From Gelidibacter salicanalis (GTDB taxonomy: Bacteria; Bacteroidota; Bacteroidia; Flavobacteriales; Flavobacteriaceae): a stretch of DNA of 64,000 bases. Below are positions 2,476 through 21,851 of the stretch, one piece after another. The stretch lies in the NCBI RefSeq assembly GCF_016469035.1, contig NZ_JAEHJZ010000032.1:62001-126000 (forward strand). The letters are read 5' to 3'. Each line of letters begins with the position of its first letter. Within the stretch, counting starts at the first letter, position 1. The position numbers and the translations under genes are program-made. The notes under the pieces were generated by a model that was given only the letters and a program-made list of their open reading frames with translations, searched no databases and was not told the DNA's origin.

Positions 2476-2546
2476 ATCATTATTGTGAGTTATCTATTCC
2501 TGATAAAGTAAAATTAAGTGTTATAGAAAAATAATTAACGTTAATA

Positions 2547-2574
2547 TTTACCCTTTGCTTCTCCAATTTTACCC
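2547..2574 (-). promoter_or_regulatory. Tandem GGGTAAA direct repeat, 21-bp spacing (site A)
   Basis: Two identical heptamers, TTTACCC on the plus strand at 2547-2553 and 2568-2574, sit exactly 21 bp apart and read GGGTAAA toward the partial susC. The same arrangement precedes the GH16, the second susC and the first sulfatase operon. Here the best -7 box (2446-2453) is about 94 bp away rather than 30-32; a weaker TTACTTTA box at 2503-2510 is 37 bp away. Likely activator site; the regulator is inferred. Confidence 0.5.
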
Positions 2575-2674
2575 TTATAGGAAATAAAAGATCAAATCCA
2601 AGTTTGTAGCTATCGCTTTGATATTTATGTATTTATATTGGATTATTTAAGTAATCATACTTGATAATGCACGC

Positions 2675-2914
2675 TTCCCTAAAAATTTTGGATTGAATTA
2701 TCAATAATATTTTTCGACGGATTTACTGGCTAAGCTTAAGCGTGAATTTCATTTTCCATAGATGCCAAATCCTTCGTTTATTTCATAGTTTTTTGTTTGG
2801 TTGTTGGTCGAGGCATATATGATAGTCTTATTTTAAATGTCTTAAAGTGAACTATATATTAGCATAATTTTGAGTTCACTCAAGCATTTAGTATCAGCCT
2901 AAATATTTATGTTT
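2675..2914. other. Non-coding stretch between the partial susC promoter region and the GH16 operon terminator
   Basis: No reading frame, repeat or recognisable relic was found here. The sequence is AT-rich and lies between the upstream region of the minus-strand susC and the terminator of the operon at 3007-4424. Confidence 0.5.
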
Positions 2915-2970
2915 AAAAATAAAAAGTGTAAAATATAGAACAAATGATCCTTGTCTCTATTTTACACTTT
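2915..2970 (-). terminator. Hairpin terminator of the GH16/small-protein operon
   Basis: AAAGTGTAAAATA (2923-2935) pairs perfectly with TATTTTACACTTT (2958-2970). Read on the minus strand the stem is followed by a T-rich run, as in an intrinsic terminator, 36 bases after the stop of the small gene at 3007. Confidence 0.65.
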
Positions 2971-3006
2971 ATAACTTACTTAAAAACATGTGTTGATAAG
3001 CTTTCC

Positions 3007-3366
3007 TTATTTAACTTGTTTCAGTTCTGCGCGCATTCTAGTTAAAAAAGGCTCTAATTCATCATATTGTATTCCAGTCAATTTAATTAATGCATTGTTA
3101 AAATTTTTACTTGCTTCTTGCGTTTTTGATATTTTATCTGCAGAAGTAATGTCTCCACTTTTTTCTTGTTTGGTAGCCTCTCCGTACGCCACAACCATTG
3201 CCGTTCTTATAACTTTAAGCTCATCTTGTTGCAGTTTGTTTAAATTGTACTCTTTTGTGGCAGCTTCAACAAAATATTTATTTTGTCTTTCTTGGTGTTT
3301 GCTTTGTGAGTAAGTTGCTGTAAATGTAATTGCGAGTAATAATGTTAGAATAATTTTTTTCATCAT
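3007..3366 (-). CDS. Small secreted helical protein, unknown function
   Basis: About 119 aa: an N-terminal signal peptide (MMKKIILTLLL...TATYSQ) followed by a highly charged, predicted helical mature part (QDELKVIRTAMVVAYGEA, DELEPFLTRMRAELKQVK). I recognise no family. An upstream in-frame ATG at 3414 would add 16 residues ahead of the signal peptide and overlap the preceding gene, so the start at 3366 (or the next codon, 3363) is preferred. It lies 35 bases after the GH16 gene on the same strand and shares its terminator, so it is probably co-transcribed. A periplasmic helper or binding role is possible but unsupported. Confidence 0.6.
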   Translation of the reverse strand: MMKKIILTLLLAITFTATYSQSKHQERQNKYFVEAATKEYNLNKLQQDELKVIRTAMVVAYGEATKQEKSGDITSADKISKTQEASKNFNNALIKLTGIQYDELEPFLTRMRAELKQVK

Positions 3367-3401
3367 ATTAATATTAAATGTTATACTTAGTTTACTGATT
3401 A

Positions 3402-4424
3402 TTATTTTTGCCAAACCCTGATATATTCTATTTCAAAATCTACCACACCATCATCTTTCTTATCGTCAGGACTCTTAGCTTCTAATTCTTCCTTACTTTT
3501 TGGAATGTCATGCCATGGAAATACTTCTTGGTCAAGCCATAAGCTGATGGGTTTAGTGGCTACATAGCCATTATAGTCATCAGGTAAATTAAGTTCTTTT
3601 CGGTTTTGTTTGACCCATGAGGTGACCTCATCTGCCGTTACAGAAGAAAATAATTGACCATCTATATAATACTTTACACCATTTTCATCCCATTCAATAC
3701 CCCAAATATGAAAATCGTCAGCAACCCTAAAACCTACATCCTTCATTTCTGTATAGGTTGGTTTTCCTGTAAGTGGCTTTTCCCAATCTCTTATTGACCA
3801 CCATAATTGACTATCAAGATGAGATTTACTTGGATTTGAAGAACCTCCATAAAGTTCAAAAAAATCAATTTCCAATTTTTTACCCATAGCCCAAAAAGCA
3901 CTTGAAATTGGTGCATCTGCAGCTTTACTTTTAATTTCGATGTAGCCATATGTAAACTCGTTTCTGCCTATAAAGCACGCTGTAGTTATATTCTCGTATG
4001 GTAAGGCTTCCCCAAATACAGGTGTCTTTATTTCTTCACTAAATGGAAAATCTGGTTCCCAACGTGTTTCTAAAATGAGTTTTCCGTTTTCTAAACGGTA
4101 ATTTCTACCTGAAAACTGGGAAGGAGCGCGCCCTTTCCATACCGTTTTATTTGGTTTGTCTGGGTGTATGTAAAAGGGTTTGTCGTTTTCAAATTTCCCG
4201 ACGATGTACCATTTGTCCTCATCAATTGACGAAGCGTTAAACTCATCACTTATCTCTGGATTAAGTGTCCAATTTCCCAAATTGGCAGGGTCAGAGAATG
4301 GATAAACAATTATGTTTGTACCTGTACTAGTTTGGGTGATGCTTTTATTATTTCCACAAGTTAACAGGAGAAAAAAAATGGCAATTGCTACATATGCAAT
4401 ATTGAAATGTTGGGTAAATTTCAT
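3402..4424 (-). CDS. GH16 family galactan hydrolase, lipoprotein (carrageenase/furcellaranase/porphyranase-like)
   Basis: Beta-jelly-roll GH16 enzyme expected to cleave internal beta-galactosidic bonds of a sulfated galactan at the cell surface. The 340-aa protein has a lipoprotein signal (FLLLTC, Cys23), a conserved YPFSDPANLGNW start and SDEFN block, WKGRAPSQF near residues 96-104, and the catalytic motif LEIDFFELYG, with E185 as candidate nucleophile, D187 and E190 as acid/base. The six-residue ExDxxE form is that of the agarase, porphyranase and kappa-carrageenase branch rather than the shorter laminarinase form. It ends in the usual FEIEYIRVWQ strand. It is related to the GH16 at 14550 (shared WKGRAPSQF, FRxADDFHxxGxEW) but lacks that protein's C-terminal module. 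It is transcribed away from dgoK under a tandem RGGTAAW site. The substrate subfamily cannot be fixed by eye. Confidence 0.88.
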   Translation of the reverse strand: MKFTQHFNIAYVAIAIFFLLLTCGNNKSITQTSTGTNIIVYPFSDPANLGNWTLNPEISDEFNASSIDEDKWYIVGKFENDKPFYIHPDKPNKTVWKGRAPSQFSGRNYRLENGKLILETRWEPDFPFSEEIKTPVFGEALPYENITTACFIGRNEFTYGYIEIKSKAADAPISSAFWAMGKKLEIDFFELYGGSSNPSKSHLDSQLWWSIRDWEKPLTGKPTYTEMKDVGFRVADDFHIWGIEWDENGVKYYIDGQLFSSVTADEVTSWVKQNRKELNLPDDYNGYVATKPISLWLDQEVFPWHDIPKSKEELEAKSPDDKKDDGVVDFEIEYIRVWQK

Positions 4425-4456
4425 GATAATATATTAATTAGAAACAATGATTTTTA

Positions 4457-4521
4457 CAAAGTAATTAGAAAAGAAAAGAATACTATTCTTAAAATTTACC
4501 TGTTGATAAGCAAAAATTACC
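4457..4521 (-). promoter_or_regulatory. Activator-type promoter of the GH16 gene: tandem site B plus -7 box
   Basis: On the minus strand GGTAAT (4521-4516) and GGTAAA (4500-4495) are 21 bp apart and are followed 31 bases later by TACTTTG (4463-4457), a -7-like box. No TTTG -33 element stands at the usual distance, so the promoter looks activator-dependent. A start near 4450 would leave a short leader before the ATG at 4424. Confidence 0.5.
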
Positions 4522-4600
4522 TTTTGAAATAAAAAGGTAAAATAATGCAACATGAGGATAATAGATACTATCTAATAGTGTTCATTTATACAGTTCTTTG
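4517..4600 (+). promoter_or_regulatory. Probable dgoK promoter and shared divergent operator
   Basis: A 9-bp inverted repeat, TTACCTTTT (4517-4525) and AAAAGGTAA (4532-4540), joins the distal half-site of the leftward GH16 promoter to a rightward half-site AGGTAAAAT. A second, weaker rightward copy (AGGATAAT, 4555-4562) follows at 20 bp, and TTCTTTG (4594-4600) lies about 31 bases beyond it, matching the layout of the other sites. One operator may therefore serve both the GH16 and dgoK directions. Confidence 0.4.
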
Positions 4601-4684
4601 ACAATAATGAGTTTTGAATTGTACATAATTTTTATCAATTAAACAGATTGGTTTTTTTACAGTTAAGACTAGAAACATTCAAAT

Positions 4685-5635
4685 ATGGAAATCCCGGAAT
4701 ATTTTATCAGTTGTGATTGGGGAACAAGCAATTTTAGGCTAAGAGTTGTTCATGCAATTTCTTTGGACGTTATAAATGAAATTATAACCAATCAAGGTGT
4801 TAAAAAAGTTTACGATCAATATACAGCACAAAATGAATTATGCCAATTTGATTTTTTTTCTGACTACATAATAAGTCAAATTAAAGTTTTGCCAATCAAA
4901 CATCAAAATCATGTGATTATTTGTTCGGGCATGGCATCCTCTAGTATTGGCCTTTATGAATTGGATTATGTCAACATGCCAATTAAAGCAGATGGAAAGG
5001 ATTTAGAAATAAAGATGCTGCAATTAAAAAATCACTTTGAACTTTTACTAATTTCGGGAATTAAAGATTCACAAGGCGTAATGAGAGGGGAGGAGACGCA
5101 AGCCATTGGATTTGAAGAGCATCTTCAATCCTACGATGAAGGTATTTTACTTTTACCTGGTACACATAGTAAGCATCTCTTATATAAGGAAGGTCATTTT
5201 ATTGAACTCAAAAGTTTTATGACCGGAGAGCTTTTTGAAATTCTCTCTCAAATAAGCATATTGTCTAATTCAATTATTAAGGAAGATACAGAACAAATTT
5301 CTGAAGGTCCTTTTTTAGAAGGCGTAAAATTAGGGAGTCAAGGAAAACTTTCTTCAAGTCTCTTTTCAATTAGAGTGAATGATTTATTCGGGAAATCCAC
5401 CAAAGCTGAAAATTATTTTTATTTAAGTGGCTTATTGATTGGTGATGAATTGGCATATTTGAAAAATGAAACTAAAAAGATATTTTTAGCCGCTCCGTAT
5501 CCACTTTCCAAGCTGTACAAAATAGCATTGGACCATATTATTGGTGCAGGTAATTATATGTTCTTAGATGATGAAATAGTTGAAAAAGCCGTGTTAGTTG
5601 GTCAAAAGAAAATACTAGAATATTATGAAAAGTAA
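4685..5635 (+). CDS. dgoK: 2-dehydro-3-deoxygalactonokinase (DgoK family)
   Basis: Phosphorylates 2-keto-3-deoxygalactonate with ATP in the cytoplasm, the next-to-last step of galactonate and 3,6-anhydro-D-galactose breakdown. The 316-aa protein has the family's N-terminal nucleotide-binding motif CDWGTSNFRLR (residues 10-20), the block VIICSGMASSSIGLYEL, MRGEETQAIGF, LLPGTHSKH and SGLLIGDEL. It has no signal peptide, and its length is normal. It overlaps the aldolase gene dgoA by 11 bases, so the two are translationally coupled, and an AraC regulator follows. In carrageenan-degrading Zobellia the corresponding kinase and aldolase sit beside an AraC regulator, which supports the pathway role here. 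Confidence 0.85.
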   Translation: MEIPEYFISCDWGTSNFRLRVVHAISLDVINEIITNQGVKKVYDQYTAQNELCQFDFFSDYIISQIKVLPIKHQNHVIICSGMASSSIGLYELDYVNMPIKADGKDLEIKMLQLKNHFELLLISGIKDSQGVMRGEETQAIGFEEHLQSYDEGILLLPGTHSKHLLYKEGHFIELKSFMTGELFEILSQISILSNSIIKEDTEQISEGPFLEGVKLGSQGKLSSSLFSIRVNDLFGKSTKAENYFYLSGLLIGDELAYLKNETKKIFLAAPYPLSKLYKIALDHIIGAGNYMFLDDEIVEKAVLVGQKKILEYYEK

Positions 5636-6269
5636 AACATCCTTTAATTGGGACTTATATAAAAAAGCTCCAATAGTTGGCATTGTAAGGAACGCCCCTC
5701 TAGAAACAATTTTGAAAATTGCTGAAACCTATTTAGAGGCCAACTTATATACCATAGAAATTACAATGAATACAGAAGGAGCCATCAATATCATTAGGGT
5801 TCTTCGCAAAGAGTTTCCAACTCTAAATGTTGGTGCAGGAACCGTTTGTTCTAAAGATGATCTAAATAATGCATTAAGTGCAGGAGCGCAATTTATTGTA
5901 ACTCCCATAATAAATGAAGAGGTCATTAAAAGTACTGTTTCACAAAATATACCAATATTTCCTGGGGCATATACACCAACAGAAATTTATAAGGCTTGGA
6001 GCCTTGGAGCATCCGCTGTAAAAGTATTTCCTGCAACTCAATTAGGTACTCAGTATTTAAAAGATGTGATGGGCCCATTGAACCAGATAAAATTACTGCC
6101 CACAGGAGGTGTGTCAATACATAATATTAAATCTTTCTTTGAGGCAGGTGCTATTGGTGTAGGCATGGGCAGCTCTTTGCTTAATACAAAATTGATACAG
6201 AATGGTGATTTTATTGGTCTTAAAAATCATTTTCAGAGTATAAAAAATGAGATTAAAGATTATGTGTAA
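5625..6269 (+). CDS. dgoA: 2-dehydro-3-deoxy-6-phosphogalactonate (KDPG/KDPGal) aldolase
   Basis: Class I aldolase that splits 2-keto-3-deoxy-6-phosphogalactonate into pyruvate and glyceraldehyde 3-phosphate. The 214-aa cytoplasmic protein shows the family landmarks: PIVGIVR (16-22), catalytic Glu45 in YTIEITMNT, GAGTV (70-74), FPGAYTPTEI, the Schiff-base lysine K133 in SAVKVFPA, and the phosphate-binding end PTGGVS and GVGMGSSL. It overlaps the end of dgoK by 11 bases. KDPG and KDPGal aldolases look alike; pairing with DgoK in a galactan locus favours the galacto form. Confidence 0.87.
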   Translation: MKSKTSFNWDLYKKAPIVGIVRNAPLETILKIAETYLEANLYTIEITMNTEGAINIIRVLRKEFPTLNVGAGTVCSKDDLNNALSAGAQFIVTPIINEEVIKSTVSQNIPIFPGAYTPTEIYKAWSLGASAVKVFPATQLGTQYLKDVMGPLNQIKLLPTGGVSIHNIKSFFEAGAIGVGMGSSLLNTKLIQNGDFIGLKNHFQSIKNEIKDYV

Positions 6270-6352
6270 AGACATTTTTTTAACAATTTAATGGATATAT
6301 AGCAGTTTTTTTGACAATTTAGTATTCAATTTCGTTATTATTGAAAAATAAC

Positions 6353-6360
6353 TATCTTTG
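6353..6360 (+). promoter_or_regulatory. -7 box placed for leaderless transcription of the AraC gene
   Basis: TATCTTTG is an exact TAnnTTTG match whose last base is only 5 bases from the ATG at 6366. A start point at the normal distance would fall on or next to the start codon. A -33 element is poor (only TTTCG near 6330). Confidence 0.4.
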
Positions 6361-6365
6361 GTTTT

Positions 6366-7223
6366 ATGAAGCTCGTGTTAAAAAACGCCGATACAAATGC
6401 TTATAAGAAATTAAGTGTCTCAAGAAGGATTCTTCCCTGTTTAGATGTCGCATGGCATTATCATCCTGAATTTGAACTTATTTATATAACCAAGAGTAAT
6501 GGACTACGTTTTGTAGGCGATAGCGTCTCAGCATTTCAACCAGGAGACTTAGTTTTGGTGGGGTCTTATTTGCCACATCTTTGGAGAAATGATCCTTCTT
6601 ATTACAAGGAAGATAGCACGGAAGAAGTGGAAACAATTATAACAAAATTCACCATAGATTTTCTAGGCAATGAGATATTCAAACTACCTGATTTCATTGA
6701 AATCAAGAAACTCTTAGATAAATCAAAATTCGGGATTTGTTTTGGCGTAGAAACAAGTTTGGCGCTTCATAATGAAATTGTAAACTTGCCTAACCTATCG
6801 TCCGTTGAGCAATACATAAAAATCTTGACTATTTTGCAGAAGTTATCATTGACAGATGATATTAGCATTTTATCATCTTCAGACATGAGACAATCAACCA
6901 CAGAAAGTTCTGAGCGTATAGATACGGTGTTAAGATATATTTCCGATAATTACGCCGCAAATATAGGGCTTGACGATATTGCTGATGTGGCGTGCATGAC
7001 TACTAATTCTTTTTGTCGGTTTTTCAAGAAAACAACAAATAAATCGTTCACCCAATTTCTAAATGAGGTGCGAATCAAAAATGCTTCGCGTCTATTAGTA
7101 CAAGATGACATTTCTGTATCTTCAGTTTGCTACGCTGTTGGATATAACTCCATAACCAATTTCAATAAGCAATTTAAGCAAATAATGGGGGTTACACCCA
7201 AAAGTTTCCGAGAAGCTATTTAG
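6366..7223 (+). CDS. AraC-family transcriptional regulator with N-terminal cupin
   Basis: Probable sugar-responsive regulator of the locus. The 285-aa protein has an N-terminal cupin half (AWHYHPEFELIYI, FQPGDLVLVGSYLPHLWRND; roughly residues 25-80) and a C-terminal double helix-turn-helix (residues about 180-285): IGLDDIADVACMTTNSFCRF, FTQFLNEVRIKNASRLL, SVSSVCYAVGYNSITNFNKQ and the closing MGVTPKSFRE. It is an ordinary cytoplasmic AraC, not the HTCS type. It lies 96 bases after dgoA and upstream of susC. In Zobellia galactanivorans an AraC-family gene beside the anhydrogalactose catabolic genes controls carrageenan use; the analogous role here is inferred, as is its binding to the 21-bp tandem sites. 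Confidence 0.88.
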   Translation: MKLVLKNADTNAYKKLSVSRRILPCLDVAWHYHPEFELIYITKSNGLRFVGDSVSAFQPGDLVLVGSYLPHLWRNDPSYYKEDSTEEVETIITKFTIDFLGNEIFKLPDFIEIKKLLDKSKFGICFGVETSLALHNEIVNLPNLSSVEQYIKILTILQKLSLTDDISILSSSDMRQSTTESSERIDTVLRYISDNYAANIGLDDIADVACMTTNSFCRFFKKTTNKSFTQFLNEVRIKNASRLLVQDDISVSSVCYAVGYNSITNFNKQFKQIMGVTPKSFREAI

Positions 7224-7572
7224 GTTCTCACTTACCTAAGAAATATCGAACTTTCTACGCTCAATACATTTATTAACAGAATGTGAAATGTAATTTTATA
7301 TCATCGTGCGTCTGGTGAAAAAGAGATTGCGAAGAACCCTTCGAGATTTAACATAATTATCTTCATAATTGAATGTGTTCAATTATCAATGTGTTCTGCA
7401 TTTCAACTTTGTTTCTCAAGATCAGAGATAATATAAACATGTTTATATCATTTCACTTTTTTATAATTTTTAGTGTTGGCAAAATATAGGAAGGTTTACT
7501 CTATTCTATTTATATCCAATACAATATTTCTACTGTCCATTTAACATTTTTAGTTTCAAATTATTAAAAACT
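7224..7572. other. Intergenic region upstream of susC with an 18-bp palindrome
   Basis: No gene is visible. It contains the perfect palindrome ATATAAACATGTTTATAT at 7431-7448 and two copies of AATGTGTTC (7372-7380, 7388-7396). These may be operator elements; nothing in the sequence ties them to a known regulator. Confidence 0.5.
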
Positions 7573-7638
7573 GGGTAAAATTATAAGATTCTAGGGTAAT
7601 TTAGAATGTTTTTTTATAAAACCCTTATGTTAATTTTG
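7573..7638 (+). promoter_or_regulatory. Activator-type promoter of susC-susD: tandem site C plus -7 box
   Basis: GGGTAAA (7573-7579) and GGGTAAT (7594-7600) are 21 bp apart. Thirty bases after the second copy comes TAATTTTG (7631-7638), a perfect TAnnTTTG box, with no TTTG at the -33 position. The predicted start near 7645 gives a leader of about 190 bases. Confidence 0.6.
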
Positions 7639-7758
7639 TGTTAAGCGCTTTCTTATTCTAATTTGACGCGAACTAATAAATAATTATTTAACTACTTAAA
7701 ATCAAACAATTAATGATATAAACATCTCAAAAGTAATCAACGAAATCATTTCAATAAA

Positions 7759-7788
7759 AATCGGAAAATGGTGGTTCATTTCCCGATT
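7759..7788 (+). promoter_or_regulatory. Hairpin in the susC mRNA leader
   Basis: AATCGGAAAATG (7759-7770) pairs with CATTTCCCGATT (7777-7788) at 11 of 12 positions around a six-base loop, 48 bases before the susC ATG. There is no U-tract after it, so it is not a plain terminator; a role in leader stability or translation control is possible. Confidence 0.45.
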
Positions 7789-7836
7789 GGTTCAAATGAT
7801 TAAAACTTAATTCAATCCTTTATTCAAAACAAAAAT

Positions 7837-10800
7837 ATGAAAAATAACATTCTTTTAAGGATGCTATATCCTTATTATTTACAATTTGATCTAAAATTCA
7901 AACTTACTCTATGCGTATTTGCAATTTCGATTTCTCACTCTTATGCGTATATTAATTCAGAAAACATCAAACCGGAATTTGGTTTGTTTGTGTCATTACA
8001 AAAAACTATTTCGGGTATAGTTTCAGATGCCAATGGACCGATACCCGGCGTGAATGTTCAAATAAAAGGAACGTCTGTTGGCGCCGTTACTGACTTTGAT
8101 GGAAACTATACTATAGATGTAAATGTTGAGAATGCTGTGTTAGTGTTTTCTTATGTTGGGTATACTACCAAAGAAATTGAGATTTTAAATAAGTCGTCAA
8201 TTGACGTAATTCTTGAAGAAGATACGGCCTTACTTGACGAGATTGTCGTTGTGGGCTATACCACAAGAAAACGAGGAGAGCTCACAGGATCTGTTAGTAC
8301 TATAAATTCTGCTGAAATTCAGAACACTTCCAATAAGGATGTAGCTAAATCGTTGGCGGGTAAGGTTTCTGGCTTAATTGTATCCGATAGAGGAGGATAC
8401 CCTGGTTCAAATGATGATATTTCATTGTTAATTCGCGGTAAATCTACTTTAGGGAATAATGCACCCTTAATTTTAATTGATGGAATAGCAGCAGGACAAG
8501 GGTCGTTTTCCCAATTATCACCTCAAGATATTGCCTCTATAAGTATTTTGAAAGATGGTGCAGCAGCAATTTATGGAACTCGCGCAGCAAACGGTGTTAT
8601 TTTAGTTACTACTATGCGGGGTAAACTTGGAAAGCCCAAAATCAACGTATCCACATCTTATAGTTTAGCTAGTTTTTCTTCAACACCAAGCTTAATGAGT
8701 TCTTCACAATATGCCATTTATAACAATGAAATTGCAGATCGAAAAGGTGAACCTCTCCCTTATACTGAAGAAGATATAAATAATTTTGCATCTAATAATG
8801 ATCCTCTCAATTTTCCTAACACAGACTGGAGTGATCTTACATTTGCGAAATCAGCTCCTGAAACTAGAACATCTCTGTCTATTTCAGGGGGTAGTGAGAA
8901 TGTTAAGTATTTTGTCAGTGGAGATGTAACAGATAGAGAAGGCATGTACGCTTCTGGAGATTTAGGTTTTAATCAAAACCAAATACGTTCTAATTTAGAT
9001 ATTGATATCACTAAAAATTTTAAAATTGGCGTGGATTTATCTGGACGATTTGGGAAAACAACAGAACCAGGCGTGGATGCAGGCTATATTTACAAACACA
9101 TTTATACGAACGAACCTACTTTAGTTGGCGTGTATCCTAATGGGCTGCCTTCTGGTGTTGGACTTGAGAATGGAGCAAACCCCTATGTGATGTCAAGTAA
9201 TGAATCTGGTTTTGTTAAAAGAACAGATAATGATTTGAGAAGTAGGTTCTCTTATGATTGGGATTTAAGCAATCTAGTTGATGGATTAAGTTTAAATGGT
9301 TATGCAGGTGTAAGAAGAATGAACAATGACGAAAAATCTTGGTACACCCCTTGGACGGTATATGCTTTTGATACTGCTTCAAATGACTACCTTGCATCGA
9401 CAGGTTTCTCACAACGTGGAAATGAAAGAATACTGAACGAAAGTTTTTGGAAATTTGATGAAACATTATTAAACTCAACACTTCGTTATTCTACAACCTT
9501 TGCAGAAAACCATTCCTTAAGTGGCTTTATTGGATATGAGCAACAAACTTCTAAGTCGCGCAATTTTTGGGCGGAGAGAAAAGGTTTTCCAACCGATAAT
9601 CATTCAGAATTATTTGCGGGTAGTGACGAAGGGCAACAATCCAGTGGTTCTTCTAGCGAAGCCGCTACGGTAAGTTATTTTGGATCGTTATCTTATGATT
9701 TCCTCAAAAAGTACTTTGTTGATTTTACAATACGTCGTGATGGTTCAAGTAATTTTGGGCCCAATAACCGTTTCGGTACCTTTCCTGGGGTTGCCTTGGC
9801 ATGGGCAATAGACAAAGAATCATATATGAAAAATATAGAGTGGTTGAGTGCCTTAAAATTAAGAGCATCTTATGCTGAAATGGGTAATGACCGGATTGCG
9901 CCATTTCAATATTTAACACGCTATAATTATGGTGGTCCTGTAAATGCGGCAAGACCTAACTATTATGTTTTTGGTTTAGCAGGAACAAGTTACAATGGTT
10001 ACACCAGTGCCAATGTGCCTAATCCGGATGTTACATGGGAAACCGCCTTTATGCAAAATATCGGTTTAAACTTTACTGTCCTAAATTACAGGCTGTCTGG
10101 CGACATTAATTATTTTTATCAAAAGAGGGAGGGTATCTTGGTTACAAGGGCAGAGGCAATTCCGGATGCTGCAGGCTTAACCTTGCCAGCAGAAAATATT
10201 GGGAAAGTAAATAACTTTGGTCTAGAGATTGAAATGGTTTGGAAAGATAAAATCGGAAACGTAGATTACAATCTAGGCTTTAATTATACACAAGCAAAAA
10301 ACGAAGTTAAATATTTAGCTGAAGCTGCCGACACGCCCGAAGGCTTAAAGAGAGAAGGCAAACCGTTAGATTCATATGTGGTCTACCCAACAGATGGAAT
10401 CTTTAAAGATCAAGCTCAGGTAGATGCTACAGCAGTTAAATTACCAGGTACTGTTCCTGGGGAACCATATTATTTGGATACTAATAATGATGGTGTGATA
10501 AACTCAAAAGACAGGATACGTAAATTCACTTCCAATGTTCCTGAAATCCAGTACGGTATTTTTGGAGGTATAAATTATGATAATTTCAATTTCAATTTTT
10601 TATTTCAAGGACAGGCAAAAGCGGAAATGTTAGTGTTTTTTGATCAGCAGGGAGCCAAACCCGATTATGTATTCAATGATAGATGGACACCAACCAACCG
10701 CAACGCTGAATATCCAAGAGCCTTTGGAATTAGCGATAGTTATAGCGGTAATCAAAGTGGAAACGTTGATAATTTTGAAGGTGCAGATTTTTGGCTGCGT

Positions 10801-11031
10801 GACGCTTCTTTTTTAAGACTAAAAGAGATTGAATTAGGATATACTTTTAACAAGGACGATATAAAAATAGGTGATTTGAAAGTATTTGTAAGAGGATTCA
10901 ATTTGCTGACTATGTTTTCAGATGTATATAAACTTGGTTTGGATCCGGAGGCAACAGGATATAACAATTTCAGAAATGCGACCTATCCTTCACTCAAGAC
11001 CTATACTTTCGGTGTGAACTTTAGTTTTTAA
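7837..11031 (+). CDS. SusC-like TonB-dependent outer-membrane receptor
   Basis: Complete 1064-aa oligosaccharide transporter. An N-terminal export signal (residues 1-38, unusually long) precedes a carboxypeptidase-regulatory-like domain (ISGIVSDANGPIPGVNVQIK, TDFDGNYTI, about 58-130), the TonB/plug segment (DEIVVVGYTTRKRGELTGSV, ILIDGI, SILKDGAAAIYGTRAANGVI) and a 22-strand barrel ending in the aromatic signature TFGVNFSF. The RDGSSNFG and FPGVALAWAID blocks are standard SusC features. susD begins 12 bases downstream, and the two form the import pore and lid. Regulation is suggested by the tandem GGGTAAW site C and a long structured leader. The transported glycan is presumably the GH16 product. 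Confidence 0.95.
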   Translation: MKNNILLRMLYPYYLQFDLKFKLTLCVFAISISHSYAYINSENIKPEFGLFVSLQKTISGIVSDANGPIPGVNVQIKGTSVGAVTDFDGNYTIDVNVENAVLVFSYVGYTTKEIEILNKSSIDVILEEDTALLDEIVVVGYTTRKRGELTGSVSTINSAEIQNTSNKDVAKSLAGKVSGLIVSDRGGYPGSNDDISLLIRGKSTLGNNAPLILIDGIAAGQGSFSQLSPQDIASISILKDGAAAIYGTRAANGVILVTTMRGKLGKPKINVSTSYSLASFSSTPSLMSSSQYAIYNNEIADRKGEPLPYTEEDINNFASNNDPLNFPNTDWSDLTFAKSAPETRTSLSISGGSENVKYFVSGDVTDREGMYASGDLGFNQNQIRSNLDIDITKNFKIGVDLSGRFGKTTEPGVDAGYIYKHIYTNEPTLVGVYPNGLPSGVGLENGANPYVMSSNESGFVKRTDNDLRSRFSYDWDLSNLVDGLSLNGYAGVRRMNNDEKSWYTPWTVYAFDTASNDYLASTGFSQRGNERILNESFWKFDETLLNSTLRYSTTFAENHSLSGFIGYEQQTSKSRNFWAERKGFPTDNHSELFAGSDEGQQSSGSSSEAATVSYFGSLSYDFLKKYFVDFTIRRDGSSNFGPNNRFGTFPGVALAWAIDKESYMKNIEWLSALKLRASYAEMGNDRIAPFQYLTRYNYGGPVNAARPNYYVFGLAGTSYNGYTSANVPNPDVTWETAFMQNIGLNFTVLNYRLSGDINYFYQKREGILVTRAEAIPDAAGLTLPAENIGKVNNFGLEIEMVWKDKIGNVDYNLGFNYTQAKNEVKYLAEAADTPEGLKREGKPLDSYVVYPTDGIFKDQAQVDATAVKLPGTVPGEPYYLDTNNDGVINSKDRIRKFTSNVPEIQYGIFGGINYDNFNFNFLFQGQAKAEMLVFFDQQGAKPDYVFNDRWTPTNRNAEYPRAFGISDSYSGNQSGNVDNFEGADFWLRDASFLRLKEIELGYTFNKDDIKIGDLKVFVRGFNLLTMFSDVYKLGLDPEATGYNNFRNATYPSLKTYTFGVNFSF

Positions 11032-11042
11032 TAAATATAAAA

Positions 11043-12785
11043 ATGAAAAAAATGAAATATTTTAAATTAAAATATCTTTTTGTTGCATGTGGATTATTTG
11101 CAACAATAAGTTGTGAAGATGTTTTGGACACCACAGCATCAGATGCCTTTGCTGAAGATCTTATTTATAGTGATCCAGCCCAAGTAGAAAGATTGGTTTT
11201 TACTGCTTACAACAGTACTGAAAGTTGGGGGCTGAACAAAAACCAATGGTGGTCAAGACGATTTAATATTGAAGGAGCATCTTATGAAGCTAAGTTTAAC
11301 TTTAACGATATAGATCAGTATAGACTTAGAGCTGGATGGACGGCTTCCAATGTTGGTGTTTTTAAAGAAAAATGGAGTAATTATTGGTTTTATGTAAGGT
11401 CGATTAATGAGTTTTTAGATAGGATTGATACTAGTAAAGCTATGCAAGATAATCCAGAAAAGGTAAGTTTGCTTAAAGCAGAAATGCAGTTTTTACGTGC
11501 CAATCTATATAGCAAACTTATTAGTTTTTATGGTGGTGTTCCTATTTTAGACCGTGCATTAGGCTTAAATGATGATTTTAATTTAGTGCGAAATAGCTAT
11601 GAAGATTGTGTAGATTTTATAATTCAGGACCTTGATGCAGCCGCTGCAATATTACCTGAAACACGTCCTGATGCGGAATATGGTAGAGCGACTAAATTAG
11701 CAGCCTTAGCTGTAAAATCCAGAACTTTGTTATATGCTGCTAGTAAGTTACATGACCCAAGCACATCACCAAATGGCCCATTGTATGATTATACAAAAGC
11801 GAGCAAATGGCAAGATGCAGCAGATGCGGCAAAGGCCGTTATTGATTTAGTAGGTGCTAGGGATTTGATTGCTGTAAATAACGCTACCGATTACCAAAAA
11901 CTATTTTTAACACCTAATCAAGACAATATATTCGTGCGTCCTTATGGAAATGATTATTATGATTTTGGTACCGATGTGAATACATTGTGGGATCAAACAC
12001 AATCTCCTAGCGGTTATGGTGGATGGGGACTATCTTCGCCTTCCCATAATTTTGCTTTAGAGTTTAATATGGCAGATGGTACGAAAACGAGTGGTTCAGT
12101 TTCAACCTACAACCCAGCTAATCCTAACAATAACAGAGAAATGAGGTATTACGCCAATCTTAATTTTCAAGGTGCAATGTTTAGGGGGCGTGCGGTAGAT
12201 TATGCTGTATTGACCCCTTTAACTTCTGGAAACAGTTCACTCAATGGGCCAGATTCTCCAAAAGGATTGGTGGATGGAATCGGGGTAAATCAGGGACATT
12301 CTTCAAAAACTGGGTATAACATTCGGAAATTTCAGGACGAAGGTATTGGATTAACAGATATATCATCTCAACGGCCTTATATATTATATCGTTTAGCTGA
12401 AATTTATTTGAATTATGCTGAATCTTCATATCATGTTGGACAAGAAGCGGCAGCCCGTGAATTTTTGAATAAAGTGATTACAAGAGCTTTACAGCCAGCA
12501 GTTACGGAAAGTGGCATAGAACTTTTAGAAGCTATTAAAAAAGAAAGGCGTATAGAACTGGCTTTTGAAGGACACAACTTTTTTGATGAAAGAAGGTGGA
12601 TGAATGAAGCCCATTTAGGTTTTCCTGTAAAAGGCTTAAAATGGACGAAGACAACATTGGACGTTTATTCATTTACAGAATATACTGTCGTTACAAGACC
12701 ATGGTTTGAAAGACAGTATTATTTGCCTATCCCTGCCACCGAAATCGAAAAGGCTCCGGCGATGTTACAAAATGATGGTTATTAA
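11043..12785 (+). CDS. SusD/RagB-family outer-membrane glycan-binding lipoprotein
   Basis: Surface lipoprotein that binds oligosaccharides and caps the SusC pore. The 580-aa protein has a lipobox (LFATISC, Cys25), the SusD N-terminal region (DPAQVERLVFTAYN), the TPR-like ALxFRAxxY counterpart (AEMQFLRANLYSKLISFYGG, about 142-162), EYGRATKLAALAVKSR and a C-terminal RagB block (YILYRLAEIYLNYAE, ERRIELAFEGHNFFDERRW, QYYLPIPATEIEK). It follows susC by 12 bases and is closed by a strong terminator. Sugar-binding aromatic residues cannot be assigned by sequence alone. Confidence 0.95.
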   Translation: MKKMKYFKLKYLFVACGLFATISCEDVLDTTASDAFAEDLIYSDPAQVERLVFTAYNSTESWGLNKNQWWSRRFNIEGASYEAKFNFNDIDQYRLRAGWTASNVGVFKEKWSNYWFYVRSINEFLDRIDTSKAMQDNPEKVSLLKAEMQFLRANLYSKLISFYGGVPILDRALGLNDDFNLVRNSYEDCVDFIIQDLDAAAAILPETRPDAEYGRATKLAALAVKSRTLLYAASKLHDPSTSPNGPLYDYTKASKWQDAADAAKAVIDLVGARDLIAVNNATDYQKLFLTPNQDNIFVRPYGNDYYDFGTDVNTLWDQTQSPSGYGGWGLSSPSHNFALEFNMADGTKTSGSVSTYNPANPNNNREMRYYANLNFQGAMFRGRAVDYAVLTPLTSGNSSLNGPDSPKGLVDGIGVNQGHSSKTGYNIRKFQDEGIGLTDISSQRPYILYRLAEIYLNYAESSYHVGQEAAAREFLNKVITRALQPAVTESGIELLEAIKKERRIELAFEGHNFFDERRWMNEAHLGFPVKGLKWTKTTLDVYSFTEYTVVTRPWFERQYYLPIPATEIEKAPAMLQNDGY

Positions 12786-12835
12786 TAAAATCCTGGAATA
12801 TCCAAACATGGTTTGTTTGCTTAGTCATTATTTTG

Positions 12836-12868
12836 AAAATACCGAACAAAAATGTTCGGTATTTTTTT
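12836..12868 (+). terminator. Rho-independent terminator after susD
   Basis: AAAATACCGAACA (12836-12848) pairs perfectly with TGTTCGGTATTTT (12853-12865) around an AAAA loop, followed by a T run. It separates susC-susD from the sulfatase operon. Confidence 0.9.
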
Positions 12869-12976
12869 TATAAAAAGGTTGTCTAATTTCAATTAGTATC
12901 TCAAAATGTAATCAGGAAATTATTTGCTTAATTTTAGAAGAAGCCTTAATAGATTTAACTTAAAAAATATCGAATA

Positions 12977-13041
12977 GGTAAATTTTGGTAATCGAAGGGT
13001 AAATTCTACTAATGATTAGTTGAATATTTAAAGTTAATTTG
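12977..13041 (+). promoter_or_regulatory. Activator-type promoter of the first sulfatase operon: tandem site D plus -7 box
   Basis: AGGTAAA (12977-12983) and GGGTAAA (12998-13004) are 21 bp apart, with a third partial copy GGTAAT between them. TTAATTTG (13034-13041) follows about 30 bases later as the -7 box. The predicted start near 13048 supports translation from the ATG at 13069 and not from the TTG at 13039. Confidence 0.58.
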
Positions 13042-13068
13042 TTTAATCCATTTTATAAAAGTATTAAC

Positions 13069-14502
13069 ATGAAAAAAATTCTATTTATTCTTACAACATT
13101 TCTGTTTCTTCACAACAGCTATGCACAGAAACAACCAAACATTGTCTTTCTCTTTGCTGATGATGCAGGTTATGCTGATTTTGGTTTTCAAGGTAGTACG
13201 GTAATGAAAACTCCAAACTTGGATAAATTAGCAAAAAAAGGTGTCAAGTTTACACAAGCGTATGTCACTGATGCCACTTGTGGGCCTTCAAGAGCGGGGC
13301 TTATAACTGGAAAATACCAACAACGGTTTGGATATGGCGAGATAAATGTACCTGGTTATATGAGCGATAATTCCAAGTTCTTAGGAGATGATATGGGGCT
13401 GCCATTAGATCAGGTCACCATGGCGGATTATCTTAAGAAACTGGGCTATGTGAATGCGATGTATGGTAAATGGCATCTAGGGGATGCCGATCGTTTTCAT
13501 CCATTAAAAAGAGGGTTTGACGAATTTTATGGTTTTAGAGGTGGTGCCCGTAATTACTTTGCTTATGAAAACTTCAAAAACGTGCATCATGACAATAAAA
13601 TGGAGCGTGACTTTGGAAACTTTGAAGAACCAGATGGCTATGCTACCGATGTTTTTGCAGATAAAGCCATTTCATTTATTGAAAGAAATCAAGATAAACC
13701 GTTTTTTATATATCTCGCATTTAATGCAGTACACACGCCAATGCAGGCTACACAGGAAGATTTAGACCGATTTCCAGATTTAACAGGAAAACGTAAAGAA
13801 TTGGCAGCGATGACTTGGGCTTTGGATCGTGCCAGTGGAAAGATATTAGATAAATTAAAGGAATTGGGATTAGATGAAAACACAATAGTGGTTTTTTCTA
13901 ATGATAACGGAGGTCCAACTGATAAGAATGCTTCTATAAATTTACCTTTAAGTGGGACTAAATCAAACCATTTAGAAGGTGGCTTAAGAGTCCCTTTTTT
14001 AATAAGCTGGCCCAAACATTTAAAAGGAAATACTGCCTATAATTACCCCGTGAGTACTTTGGATTTATTACCCACTTTTTATGCGGCCGGTGGAGGTGAT
14101 GTTTCTGATTTAAAAGATATAGATGGGGTAAATTTAATTCCATTTTTAAAAGTCGAAATAAAGGGAAGACCCCATGAGACGTTATATTGGAAAAAGGAAG
14201 CTCGTGGCGCAATTCGTGAAGGCGATTATAAATTAATTCGATTCCCGGACAGGCCAGCAGAACTTTATGATCTGTCTAAGGACATCGCCGAGCAAAATGA
14301 CTTAGCTTCAAAATACCCAGAGCAAGTGCGAAATATGTATAAAAAACTTTTTGAATGGGAGCTTACGTTAGAGCGACCTATGTGGATGCTAAAACAAGAG
14401 TTTGAGAAGTATGATATAGATCGTATGGATCGCTACAGAAGCCCGGAGCTTGTTGAAAAAGAAATGCACTTACCAGTGACACGAACTAAAAAGTTAGATT
14501 AG
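13069..14502 (+). CDS. S1-family sulfatase (S1_19-like), secreted
   Basis: Formylglycine-dependent sulfatase removing sulfate esters from galactan oligosaccharides. The start at 13069 gives a clean signal peptide ending SYAQ (residues 1-20). The calcium-binding DD pair ([15 protein letters not shown]31-D32), the modification motif C71-G-P-S-R followed by [20 protein letters not shown] and [11 protein letters not shown] are all present, so it should be active. CxPSRAGLxTGxYQQRFG resembles the S1_19 carrageenan sulfatase group. It is the first gene of an apparent five-gene operon that continues into GH16, GH127, the FG-GAP protein and the MFS porter. A maturation enzyme must come from elsewhere in the genome. 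Confidence 0.92.
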
Positions 14503-14549
14503 AAAAATAGCACATTTGTTAAGTACAAATGGAATTAAAGTTATGTGAT

Positions 14550-16058
14550 ATGAAATATATAAAACAGTACAATCTTGCACTTCTATTCAGTGTATTTATA
14601 TTCTTAAATGCAAGTTGTCAAGTGAAAAAACAATCAGTATTAGAGTCACAGTCAATAGTGGGCCATAATCAAGATAAAAACATTTTGTATTATCCGCATT
14701 CTGATCCTGAAAACACAGGAGGATGGGTTCTTAACAAAGACGTAAGCGATGAGTTTGAAGGCACAGAAATAGATACCACCAAATGGTTTGTTGAGGGGTT
14801 GAATGGTGATTATTATATATGGAAAGGACGAGCGCCTTCTCAATTTGTCCCACATAATGTAATTGTTGAAAATGGTAAACTTAAATTAAGAACCCAATGG
14901 GAGCCTGATTATGCATTTGCGCAGGAAGAATATGCTGATGGCAATATGGGATCAGCTGCCTATGGCATGTATGAAGGTAAGCCATTGCCTATTACTACGG
15001 CTGCCGTGCTTACTAAAAAGCGATTTTTGAATGGCTATATGGAAGTTAAGGCCAAAGTGGGAGACGCTGCCATCACCGCAGCATTTTGGGCTATTGGATA
15101 TGAGCAAGAGTTGGATGTGTTTGAGCTGATGGGGAATCCTAAAAATAAAAAAGGGAATATTAGAGAAAACTCTTATTTAGCTACCGCTCACGATTGGAGC
15201 CCTCCTGCAGAAAGGCCAACAAACGTATTTCAACATACCGAGGATCTACCTTTTAGAACCGCCGATGACTTTCATGTGTATGGCGCAGAATGGGGCGTAG
15301 ATTTTCTTAAATTATTTATAGATGGAGAAATGGTACATCATTTTACTCAAGATGATGTTGGTTTGGATTGGATACTTAACAACCCAATGGAAGTGTGGTT
15401 GGATTCTGAAATATTCAAATGGTTGGGACTTCCTCATAAAGAAGAATTGCCTGTAGATTTTGAAGTTGAATATATGCGCGTTTGGCAACAACCGTCAGAT
15501 AACCTATTAGCTAGAGATCGTGCTTTTTATGGTTTTGAAGGTCCTGTATTATTTGAAGAAAAGCCGAGACCTTTAACTATGGTTCCCGAAGATTCAACGC
15601 CTAACGACTATCAAAAGTTTTGGTTATTTGATGATGTGTCGTCAAAATATCTAAGCATCGTAGAAGGTGATTACGCTACAGGAGTTAACAGTCTTAAGTT
15701 TTCTGGTTTCGGAAAAAATGAAAGTTTGGAAGCCGATAAAGTAGTAGTTGTTTCTCCAGAAGGTGCGTTAAACATACCAGCTGGAGATTATATAGTATCC
15801 ATGAAAGTTTGGTTGGATCAAGGGCGTGTTCCTGAAAAAATCCATGTCACTCTTAGAAGTCCTGAATTAAAAATTGAATTTACAGATCTTTCAGCGCTTC
15901 CAAGACGTCAGTGGGTGAAGGTTGAATCAAAAATATCAAGACAAAAGGCCTCTGAGGATAATGATCAAATGTTGATTGAAATCCATAAAAAAGATTTGCC
16001 TAAAACAAGAGCTGCAAAGCTCTTTATTGACGATATCGAAATTAAGAAATCGAAATAA
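14550..16058 (+). CDS. GH16 galactan hydrolase with C-terminal beta-sandwich module, lipoprotein
   Basis: Second GH16 endo-hydrolase of the locus. From the ATG at 14550 (an in-frame ATG lies at 14529) the protein has 502 aa: lipoprotein signal (FIFLNASC), catalytic jelly-roll from about 45 to 318 with VSDEFEGTEID, WKGRAPSQF, GYMEVKAKVGDAAITAAFW, the catalytic motif E187-L-D189-V-F-E192 and the end VEYMRVWQQ, then about 180 residues resembling a carbohydrate-binding beta-sandwich (WLFDDVSSKYLSIVEGD, AGDYIVSMKVWLDQGR, LFIDDIEI). ExDxxE places it with kappa-carrageenase, furcellaranase or porphyranase-type enzymes. The gene sits 47 bases after the sulfatase and 40 before GH127. The lipid anchor suggests surface display. 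Confidence 0.88.
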   Translation: MKYIKQYNLALLFSVFIFLNASCQVKKQSVLESQSIVGHNQDKNILYYPHSDPENTGGWVLNKDVSDEFEGTEIDTTKWFVEGLNGDYYIWKGRAPSQFVPHNVIVENGKLKLRTQWEPDYAFAQEEYADGNMGSAAYGMYEGKPLPITTAAVLTKKRFLNGYMEVKAKVGDAAITAAFWAIGYEQELDVFELMGNPKNKKGNIRENSYLATAHDWSPPAERPTNVFQHTEDLPFRTADDFHVYGAEWGVDFLKLFIDGEMVHHFTQDDVGLDWILNNPMEVWLDSEIFKWLGLPHKEELPVDFEVEYMRVWQQPSDNLLARDRAFYGFEGPVLFEEKPRPLTMVPEDSTPNDYQKFWLFDDVSSKYLSIVEGDYATGVNSLKFSGFGKNESLEADKVVVVSPEGALNIPAGDYIVSMKVWLDQGRVPEKIHVTLRSPELKIEFTDLSALPRRQWVKVESKISRQKASEDNDQMLIEIHKKDLPKTRAAKLFIDDIEIKKSK

Positions 16059-16098
16059 GTAAAAGTTAAAATTTCAAAATTTACACCCTAATTACACT

Positions 16099-18042
16099 AT
16101 GAAGACATATCAGAAATTAACACAAATAAATATAGGAGATTGTAATTGGACCAATGGATTTTGGGCAGAAAAATTTAAATTGTGCGAGGATGTCATGGTG
16201 CCCTATATGGGCGATGTTTTATGTGGAGATGTCGGCCATGCATTGAATAACTTTAAAATTGCTGCAGGTGAAAAAGAAGGTGAACATAAGGGAATGTTTT
16301 GGCATGATGGTGATTTTTACAAGTTTATGGAAGCCAAAACTTATGTGTATGCCCACACTAAAAACAAGCAACTTTTAGATGAACTCGATGAATATGTTGC
16401 TATCCTAGCTAAGGCACAAGAGGAGGATGGTTATTTGCAAACACAAATTCAGTTAAGAGAAGGGGTTGATAGGTATGAAAACAGGAAATATCATGAAATG
16501 TATAACAGCGGTCATTTATTGATTAGCGCGTGTGCTCATTATAAAATTACAGGAAAAAGAAATTTCTTAGATATTGCCATAAAACATGCCGATTTGATCT
16601 TCACAATCTTTATGCCCGATACGAAGCATTATGGGCGTTTTGGTTTTAACCAGACTCAAATTATGGGATTGGTTGATTTGTTTAGAATAACCGATGATCA
16701 ACGGTATTTGAACTTAGCAGAAAAATTCATTAATAATAGAGGCAAGTATGAGGTAAAACATGACTCCACTACAGAGGGCTATCCTATTGGAGATATGGTC
16801 CAAGAGCGCACGCCTTTAAGAATTTCTGAAGAAGCTGTTGGGCACGCCGTTTTAGCGTTATATTATTATGCAGGTGCTGCAGATGTATATTCTGAATCGG
16901 GCGAGAAAGCCTTGATTGATGCCCTCGATAGGCTATGGGAGAATATCACTGAGAAGAAAATGTATGTTACTGGTGCCGTAGGACAGGCTCATTATGGTGC
17001 TTCCACAAATTTAGATATGATTGAGGAAGGCTTTATAGATGCTTATATGATGCCTAATATGACGGCGTATAATGAAACATGTGCTAATTTGTGTAATGCC
17101 ATGTTTAGCTACAGAATGTTGACTATTCATGGGGAATCCAAATATGCCGACATTATAGAATTAGTATTATATAACAGTGGATTGTCTGGGATAAGTGTGG
17201 AGGGTAAAGATTATTTTTATGCCAACCCATTAAGAATGGTAAATAATACGAGAGATTATCATTCTCATGAAAATATTACAGAAACACCAAATAGACAGCC
17301 TTATTTGGACTGCTTTTGTTGCCCACCAAACTTGGTGAGAACAGTTGCCAAGGTTTCAGGATGGGCGTATAGCCTTACTGAAGACGGAGTTTCTGTAAAC
17401 TTATATGGAAGCAATCATTTGGAAACCAATTTGTCCGATGGTTCCGAAATCAAACTCTCTCAAAATACTCAATATCCTTGGGATGGGTTGGTAACCATAA
17501 CCATTGATGAATGTAAAGCATCGGCTTTTGATATTAAATTACGAATTCCTGCTTGGTGCGAAGATGCGATGCTTTCAGTTAATAATCAGACTGTAGATAT
17601 TGAAATGCAGCCAGGCACATTTGCAGTCATCAACCGCGTTTGGAAAAAAGGGGATGTTATTACATTAAATCTTATAATGGAAGTTAAATTAATAGAAGGT
17701 CATCCTCGTATTGAGGAAGTTCGAAATCAGGTTGCTATAAAAAGAGGGCCTGTAGTTTATTGTATAGAATCTCCAGATCTTCCTGACGGTACTACTATTT
17801 TAGATGTTTATTTTAATGGGGATGCGCCTTTAAAAGCAGTACATAAACCAAATTTTTTAGGTGGCGTCACGGTTGTTGAAACTGAATTGCTACTGCGGAA
17901 AGATCATAAATCAGGCATGTACAGAAGTGTTGAAAAACCAAACTGGGAATCCTATAAAACGCAATTGGTTCCATATTACGCTTGGAGTAATAGAGGACAA
18001 GCAGAAATGACTGTTTTCTTACCTGTAATTTGGAATAATTAA
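16099..18042 (+). CDS. GH127 family enzyme, candidate exo-alpha-3,6-anhydro-D-galactosidase
   Basis: GH127 (DUF1680) retaining glycosidase with a zinc-bound cysteine nucleophile. The 647-aa protein has the (alpha/alpha)6 start NWTNGFWAEKF, the HDGDFYKFMEA block, and all metal and catalytic ligands: E326 and C328 in YNETCANLC, C407 (nucleophile) and C408 in CFCCPPNLVR. The family founder is a beta-L-arabinofuranosidase, but members in carrageenan loci of Zobellia release 3,6-anhydro-D-galactose from the non-reducing end. Operon position between a GH16 and a sugar porter, plus dgoK/dgoA nearby, favours the anhydrogalactose role. It has no signal peptide and is probably cytoplasmic or exported by an unrecognised route. 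Confidence 0.85.
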   Translation: MKTYQKLTQINIGDCNWTNGFWAEKFKLCEDVMVPYMGDVLCGDVGHALNNFKIAAGEKEGEHKGMFWHDGDFYKFMEAKTYVYAHTKNKQLLDELDEYVAILAKAQEEDGYLQTQIQLREGVDRYENRKYHEMYNSGHLLISACAHYKITGKRNFLDIAIKHADLIFTIFMPDTKHYGRFGFNQTQIMGLVDLFRITDDQRYLNLAEKFINNRGKYEVKHDSTTEGYPIGDMVQERTPLRISEEAVGHAVLALYYYAGAADVYSESGEKALIDALDRLWENITEKKMYVTGAVGQAHYGASTNLDMIEEGFIDAYMMPNMTAYNETCANLCNAMFSYRMLTIHGESKYADIIELVLYNSGLSGISVEGKDYFYANPLRMVNNTRDYHSHENITETPNRQPYLDCFCCPPNLVRTVAKVSGWAYSLTEDGVSVNLYGSNHLETNLSDGSEIKLSQNTQYPWDGLVTITIDECKASAFDIKLRIPAWCEDAMLSVNNQTVDIEMQPGTFAVINRVWKKGDVITLNLIMEVKLIEGHPRIEEVRNQVAIKRGPVVYCIESPDLPDGTTILDVYFNGDAPLKAVHKPNFLGGVTVVETELLLRKDHKSGMYRSVEKPNWESYKTQLVPYYAWSNRGQAEMTVFLPVIWNN

Positions 18043-18057
18043 AATTTAATATGCTTT

Positions 18058-19962: not shown

Positions 19963-19965
19963 TTC

Positions 19966-21531: not shown

Positions 21532-21851
21532 TCAATTTAATTAAATAATGTTTTGGAAATGAAAAGACATTTTTATTGAAATTTCTTCAACATACTTTTT
21601 GACTTCTTAAATTTAATTATTGGATGCTATTAATGTACCTATACTGCCACAGCCATTGCTTTTAGATGGCATAGAGTAATTTTTAAAAATTGTAATATTT
21701 TTAAAAATACAATGTGAATAGTTGTACTTCCTATCCAAATCACCATTGAGATAATATAATGCACACAAAAGGTAATTTTGACACTTAAAATCGGTTTAAA
21801 TTTTTCGAAATTGTCATACCAGATAAAACTAAATTAATACACATAAGTCTT
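21532..21851. other. Intergenic region before the second sulfatase operon
   Basis: No gene is visible. It holds two TTTTTAAAAA palindromes near 21680-21710 and a TAATTTTG box at 21773-21780 that could be the promoter of the operon starting at 21852. A single RGGTAAT half-site overlaps that box and a partial GGTTTAAA copy lies 22 bp on; this does not meet the spacing of the other tandem sites. Confidence 0.4.

Follow-up and report, generated by a model that had tools for sequence, protein, structure and literature searches.

A tandem 21-bp repeat as the predicted operator of a stand-alone AraC-family regulator in a carrageenan locus of Gelidibacter salicanalis

The 64,000-nucleotide stretch of Gelidibacter salicanalis DNA analysed here (Bacteroidota, Flavobacteriaceae; contig NZ_JAEHJZ010000032.1, positions 62,001 to 126,000; hereafter the window) carries a gene for an AraC-family regulator. 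Two susCD systems, homologues of dauA-D, and GH127, sulfatase and GH16 genes lie behind five promoters of the same locus, in the window and on the adjoining part of its contig (Table 1). This gene set matches the core carrageenan system described in PMC5698469, which consists of dauA-D, dagA (GH127), cgsB, cgrA, cgtA and cgtB. The operon behind the leftmost promoter comprises susC-susD, two further genes, an enolase-superfamily dauB homologue and an aldehyde dehydrogenase dauA homologue; its genes are 12-115 bp apart on one strand and run to G000:C242:54601. The closest PDB entry to the first sulfatase of the unit behind operator 5 is the exo-4S-kappa-carrageenan sulfatase 6prm (E 1e-217). Each of the five promoters is preceded by a tandem RGGTAAW repeat with 21-bp spacing, in one case with a mismatch. 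On comparative sequence evidence, this pair is very probably the operator through which the AraC protein at 6366-7223 and its orthologs activate promoters that have no -33 box.

Table 1. Predicted operators, promoter boxes and genes of the locus, in window coordinates
Feature	Position	Strand	Context	Basis
AraC operator 1 (predicted), GGGTAAA-N14-GGGTAAA	2547..2574	-	upstream of left susC operon	
Degenerate -7 box TTAATTTTA	2509..2517	-	offset as in other sites	sequence
AraC operator 2 (predicted), AGGTAAT-N14-AGGTAAA	4495..4522	-	upstream of GH16 gene 3402-4424	
-7 box TTACTTTG	4457..4464	-	offset 34	
AraC operator 3 (predicted), AGGTAAA-N14-AGGATAA plus T, one mismatch	4535..4562	+	upstream of dauC-dauD homologues	
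TTTG of -7 box GTTCTTTG	4597..4600	+	offset 34	
AraC operator 4 (predicted), GGGTAAA-N14-GGGTAAT	7573..7600	+	upstream of susC 7837 - susD 11043	
-7 box TAATTTTG	7631..7638	+	offset 34	
AraC operator 5 (predicted), AGGTAAA-N14-GGGTAAA	12976..13003	+	upstream of sulfatase/GH16/GH127/transporter genes 13039-21531	
-7 box TTAATTTG	13034..13041	+		sequence, box offset
Possible sixth operator	21749..21776	+	upstream of sulfatase 21852	one-mismatch pair
AraC-family regulator, proposed operator binder	6366..7223	+		HTH_18, AraC fold, ortholog clade 100/100
GH16 gene	3402..4424	-	downstream of operator 2	PDB match 9ijc
2-keto-3-deoxygalactonokinase and KDPGal-type aldolase (dauC, dauD homologues)	4685..6269	+	downstream of operator 3	
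susC and susD	7837..12785	+	downstream of operator 4	
Sulfatase, GH16, GH127, FG-GAP protein, sugar transporter	13039..21531	+	downstream of operator 5	
Hybrid two-component regulator (HTCS)	32632..36798	+		rival candidate

A sequence-only reading of this DNA had described repeat pairs exactly 21 bp apart ahead of four transcription units. All four were present at that spacing, with the positions 2547, 4495 and 7573 correct and the fourth, given as 12977, starting one base lower at 12976. The set of promoters was incomplete: a fifth site, operator 3, had been missed ahead of dauC-dauD, where it is divergent from operator 2, an arrangement shared by the relative locus L041. A TTAnTTTG box placed 30-32 bases after the inner copy was likewise found at the three sites for which it was claimed (4495, 7573 and 12976), TTTG at offset 34 putting TTAnTTTG at 30; the 2547 site had not been counted, though TTAATTTTA, one letter off the -7 box, stands at the same place. 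The TTG listed as the sulfatase start overlaps the -7 box of operator 5, so ATG 13069 is the more likely start. Pairs with at most one mismatch numbered 7 in the window, compared to a mean of 0.59 in 100 shuffled sequences (largest count 4). One such pair, at 36554, was dropped because it lies inside the gene for the hybrid two-component regulator (HTCS).

Scanning of the whole genome for RGGTAAW-N14-RGGTAAW had been proposed as a check. The bare pair was not abundant genome-wide, with 8 exact occurrences in 5.16 Mb compared to 5 for a reversed control pattern, and half of the 8 fell within the 10.5 kb considered here, which make up 0.2% of its length (P = 1.2e-9, with the region chosen post hoc). 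The other four lie in stop-free stretches, three of 289-501 codons and one of 98. The signal thus resides in place, spacing and context, not in the bare genome-wide count.

We scanned a collection of species genomes with the AraC protein and obtained 80 loci, 28 of which (525,554 bp) encode an AraC relative at 59-73% identity, taken as orthologs, and 52 (910,835 bp) one at 41% or less, taken as paralogs. At a spacing of 21 there were 23 exact pairs, in 14 of the 28 ortholog loci, while each spacing of 10-20 and 22-32 gave 0 to 2; no exact pair at spacing 21 was found in the 52 paralog loci. Together with the four window pairs these make 27 exact sites, all but one intergenic by an open reading frame (ORF) test, the exception overlapping a 111-aa ORF on the opposite strand. 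In a control genome, G188, one contig carried two exact pairs separated by 11 kb. When it was then searched for AraC, a previously unlisted 63% ortholog was found at C14:46422-47270, 32 bp before one of the pairs, as the pairs had predicted. At L033:17230-17490 (Algibacter mikhailovii), two sites with identical 28-bp cores lie on opposite strands 233 bp apart, which looks like an inverted copy of one operator.

Stacking of the 27 exact sites revealed, besides the repeats, a strong box ending in TTTG; the RGGTAAW pattern used to find the sites contains no box letters. TTTG began at offset 34 after the inner repeat in 17 sites, at 33 in two and at 35 in three (22/27 at 33-35), and the remaining five had TTT plus another letter at the same place, so that TTT was present in all 27. 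The stretch in which a -33 box would be expected, offsets 2-16 from the inner repeat, held no TTTG in any site, which bears out the sequence-only reading on this point. The -7 box lies at -12 to -5 in Flavobacterium psychrophilum (PMC9723704); the outer repeat would therefore start at about -70, and the inner half-site would span about -49 to -33. With start positions deduced in this way, the location of the predicted operator suits an activator that replaces the -33 box. Positions 13-16 of the first half lean to GTTA (T14 in 20/27, A16 in 23/27) and the second half has A33, A36 and T38 instead; a second sub-box common to both half-sites was not borne out, as the two halves differ in letters.

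The sites were also recovered with sequence profiles. The first, R1, has 71 positions and was trained on the 23 sites of relatives alone, the window being left out. Run on the whole genome of G. salicanalis, it placed four window sites at the top, 12976 at rank 1 (E 9.2e-8), 4495 at rank 2 (E 1.4e-5), 2547 at rank 3 (E 2.3e-5) and 7573 at rank 4 (E 1.45e-3), with the next match at E 0.076. In the ortholog loci, it detected 53 sites at E <= 0.01, in 25 of the 28 loci, 11 of which had given no training site; none reached this threshold in the 52 paralog loci (best 0.018). A second profile, R2, from 68 relatives' sites, returned operator 3 (4534-4599) in the G. salicanalis genome at E 0.0053 and added sites in loci L042 and L057. 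The one-mismatch pair at 21749 is ambiguous: its inner repeat overlaps TAnnTTTG, and its R2 E-value of 8.8e-4 in the window rises to 0.04 genome-wide, where an unrelated match scores better (0.029). Among 149 genomes of the family, 31 had an R1 match at E <= 0.01. These include all eight that encode an AraC ortholog of at least 58% identity, each with a best E <= 8e-5; two of the eight (G002 and G138) are training loci (L037 and L041), one is G. salicanalis itself and five are new.

An enrichment of such sites ahead of galactan genes had been suggested as a further check. Of the 68 model sites in relatives, 57 lie ahead of a gene that has a homologue on the window's contig and 10 ahead of one that has none; the remaining site reaches the end of its locus. 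The commonest downstream homologues were susC (17), GH127 (12) and dauB-type genes (8).

The AraC protein is a stand-alone regulator of 285 aa with a C-terminal domain of two helix-turn-helix (HTH) motifs (PF12833, HTH_18, E 3.5e-21, residues 205-283). Helices of its AlphaFold model (pLDDT 84, pTM 0.61) match AraC-type domains with TM scores of up to 0.90 of the target, and its N-terminal part is predicted to be a cupin-like sensor domain, with matches to the RhaR and AraC regulatory domains at TM scores of 0.46-0.62 of the target. The sites themselves supply a predicted tandem direct-repeat operator beside the promoter, as for the AraC/XylS family. A tree of 67 proteins, with 28 of the 52 paralog loci represented, groups the window AraC with 32 other proteins in one clade (33 rows, support 100/100), separate from a Zobellia-type clade (3 rows, 100/99), the branches linking the two being weakly supported. 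Members of the window clade have HTH letters of their own, TTNSFCRFFK and NSITNFNKQF, compared to, for example, NPTAFCRFFK and NNLSNFNRQF in distant relatives, which is suggestive of a shared target. The AraC gene of the window has no preceding operator; locus L050 has one just upstream of its AraC gene. The sequence TATCTTTG (window 6353-6366) ends 5 nt upstream of the AraC start codon, and given this position the AraC message may be nearly leaderless. Two Polaribacter loci, L032:8996-10864 and L034:8998-10864, each contain two tandem AraC copies of the window clade, and in L251 (G050:C10:20001-40000) a 43% AraC relative lies beside dauB and dauA homologues.

A Zobellia-like genome, G001, links these sites to a characterized regulon. 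Its AraC protein is 37% identical to that of the window, and the gene order is AraC, transporter, site, symporter, dauB, dauA, dauC, dauD, a 5opq-like protein, site, GH127, transporter, GH127, GH127. The 5opq-like protein is almost identical to the 3,6-anhydro-D-galactosidase of PDB 5opq, which we take to be ZGAL_3152. The order is that published for ZGAL_3159 to 3147 of Zobellia galactanivorans, without a counterpart of 3151 (PMC5698469). Three strong sites in G001 precede the counterparts of ZGAL_3157, of ZGAL_3150 and of cgtA, the last being the susC closest to that of the window (56%; next best 37%), 265 bp after its site. According to the published data, D-AnG (3,6-anhydro-D-galactose) acts as inducer in the Z. 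galactanivorans carrageenan regulon, with log2 changes of 7.0, 5.2 and 5.6 for ZGAL_3157-3155, 7.1 for 3150 and 4.3 for cgtA, and of 0.8 or less for cgkA, cgiA1 and cgiA3; deletion of cgrA (ZGAL_3159, AraC type) slows growth on carrageenan and not on agar (PMC5698469). A second genome of the Zobellia-type set, G011, has its closest susC (67%) 300 bp after a site. The same operator type and target genes occur in the Zobellia-type set, a comparison in which the G001 AraC stands in for CgrA.

The sequence-only reading assigned its four promoters to the AraC gene at 6366 and named the HTCS, whose DNA-binding domain is also AraC-type, as the competing candidate. The comparative evidence argues for AraC at all four and at operator 3 as well. 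The 21-bp spacing, offered as the mark of an AraC-type activator, is real but undecisive alone, as the motifs predicted for HTCS regulators of Bacteroides are likewise direct repeats, on average 21 bp apart (PMC3878776). The HTCS is moreover encoded in the same cluster, and 15 of the 28 AraC-ortholog genomes have a homologue of it (E <= 1e-150). Distribution decides between the two, since the sites track AraC orthologs and not the HTCS: of the 13 ortholog genomes that lack the HTCS at this threshold, 10 have sites beside AraC at E <= 0.01 and two more gain them with R2. Three genomes of the family sample, G119, G138 and G145, combine AraC and sites with no HTCS; in two others, G019 and G051, the HTCS is present and both an AraC ortholog and sites are missing. 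No convincing site was found in the right-hand half of the window, where the HTCS gene sits, and a search of 12 upstream stretches, mostly from that half, for 20-22-bp repeats yielded scattered 7-of-8 pairs only and no shared motif. We therefore consider it very unlikely that the HTCS binds the repeats.

AraC-family proteins can activate and repress, and the protein at 6366 might bind these sites mainly as a repressor or dual regulator. The complex phenotypes of a cgrA mutant on solid media would fit such a role, but cgrA deletion reduces growth on carrageenan (PMC5698469). In addition, the sites leave the -7 box and the start free, being placed immediately ahead of the -33 region, and none of the exact sites has a -33 box, all of which makes this role highly improbable. 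It is hardly credible that the repeats are an element of promoters in general or a product of chance in AT-rich DNA ahead of genes. The whole-genome count of the bare exact pair was rejected as proof, since it does not exceed that of the reversed pattern (151 vs 201 in 27 ortholog genomes; 8 vs 5 in G. salicanalis). However, no spacing other than 21 is favoured, and that one only where a locus holds an AraC of this clade; the distance from the pair to the -7 box is always the same; and R1, built from other species, recovers these four sites from 5.16 Mb. A general element should also stand ahead of unrelated genes in this genome, and the next-best R1 match has E 0.076. The spacing test and the R1 recovery already refute a chance origin; the repeats are real.

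Several observations nevertheless weigh against assigning the repeats to AraC. Besides this lack of enrichment of the bare pair, 7573 has the poorest E-value of the four sites recovered by R1 and would not persuade on that value alone. Locus L040 remained without a site even with R2; its contig ends about 540 bp after AraC. No such site was found near the 43% AraC relative in L251, which is perhaps a regulator with another operator. R1 also matched 23 of the 141 family genomes in which AraC has no close ortholog, compared to a nominal 1.4. In whole genomes, R1 E-values of 0.001-0.01 are thus too optimistic and need other evidence beside them. Strong matches occur in three of these 23 genomes (G001, G129 and G030). 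Those of G001 and G129 are accounted for by the Zobellia link, although no close susC was found in G129; that of G030 is a single one at C14:38703-38772 (L214; E 9.4e-6). The other 20 have weak single matches (best E 2.6e-4 to 9.5e-3) that were taken mostly as background of an AT-rich profile; G011 is among them, as is G018, whose match beside an AraC gene has E 0.016 with R2. Lastly, ZGAL_3158 and ZGAL_181 respond to D-AnG with log2 changes of 4.1 and 5.1 (PMC5698469), and no site was found before the ZGAL_3158 counterpart in G001.

Outside the regulated units, the CGLA propeller and middle domain of a lambda-carrageenase are scattered in pieces over separate ORFs at window 39573-41673. This is a decayed second copy and adjoins a transposase ORF (36937-38595); the intact gene lies at 51299-54148.

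We propose that two AraC subunits would sit next to each other on the same face of the DNA, the outer subunit on the RGGTAAW at about -70 and the inner one on a half-site that touches the place of a -33 box. RNA polymerase would use the TAnnTTTG-like -7 box ending near -5, and because these promoters have no -33 TTTG, bound AraC probably stands in for that box. This would be class II activation, parallel to that at araI1-araI2 of the E. coli pBAD promoter, where tandem half-sites 21 bp apart, the inner abutting the -35 region, support class II activation. One operator type would in this way control five promoters of one locus, and with them the core carrageenan system. The probable inducer is 3,6-anhydro-D-galactose or a compound derived from it.

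On balance, we lean slightly towards a broader proposal. In this view, a common operator and promoter geometry serve two AraC clades with only about 37% identity between them, found among Flavobacteriaceae, Cytophagales, Saprospiraceae and Bacteroidales-type hosts, and one cytoplasmic signal, D-AnG or its product, governs both the passage of carrageenan sugars through the outer membrane and the monosaccharide pathway. If so, the operator would be a portable control code, its letters kept while regulator and gene order changed, and a reliable marker for carrageenan genes, distant ones included, in unannotated genomes. What surprises is this reach: one set of letters and one geometry recur ahead of the same genes across two AraC clades and in several families of the phylum, in agreement with the published induction data. 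That an AraC gene is needed for normal growth on carrageenan was known from Zobellia. The main text of PMC5698469 contains none of the terms operator, consensus, MEME or DNA binding, and no DNA site for a carrageenan AraC regulator was found in the papers searched. The present analysis adds a precise candidate operator, a geometry by which AraC may activate Bacteroidota promoters that have no -33 box, and a means to separate monosaccharide-controlled genes from those under other carrageenan signals. It also suggests that in this phylum a polysaccharide locus, susCD included, can be under a stand-alone AraC although an HTCS is encoded in the same cluster.

Compared with E. coli AraC, the window protein appears from its model to have the same combination of a cupin-type sensor and a two-HTH domain, but the half-site sequence differs, the promoter is of the Bacteroidota -7/-33 type, the sugar is different, and there is no evidence of a distant looping half-site at the window locus. 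The predicted HTCS operators of Bacteroides resemble the sites described here in being direct repeats about 21 bp apart before susCD, read by AraC-type DNA-binding domains; the HTCS is a membrane-spanning sensor kinase fusion (PMC3878776), whereas the window sites follow a stand-alone protein. In Z. galactanivorans, as in the window, an AraC-type regulator, CgrA, belongs to a carrageenan locus with the core genes dauA-D, dagA, cgsB and cgtAB (PMC5698469). The window AraC belongs to a separate clade from its G001 counterpart, and its cluster has its own susCD and dau genes split over two operons, but the same operator type stands in G001 before the counterparts of ZGAL_3157, ZGAL_3150 and cgtA.

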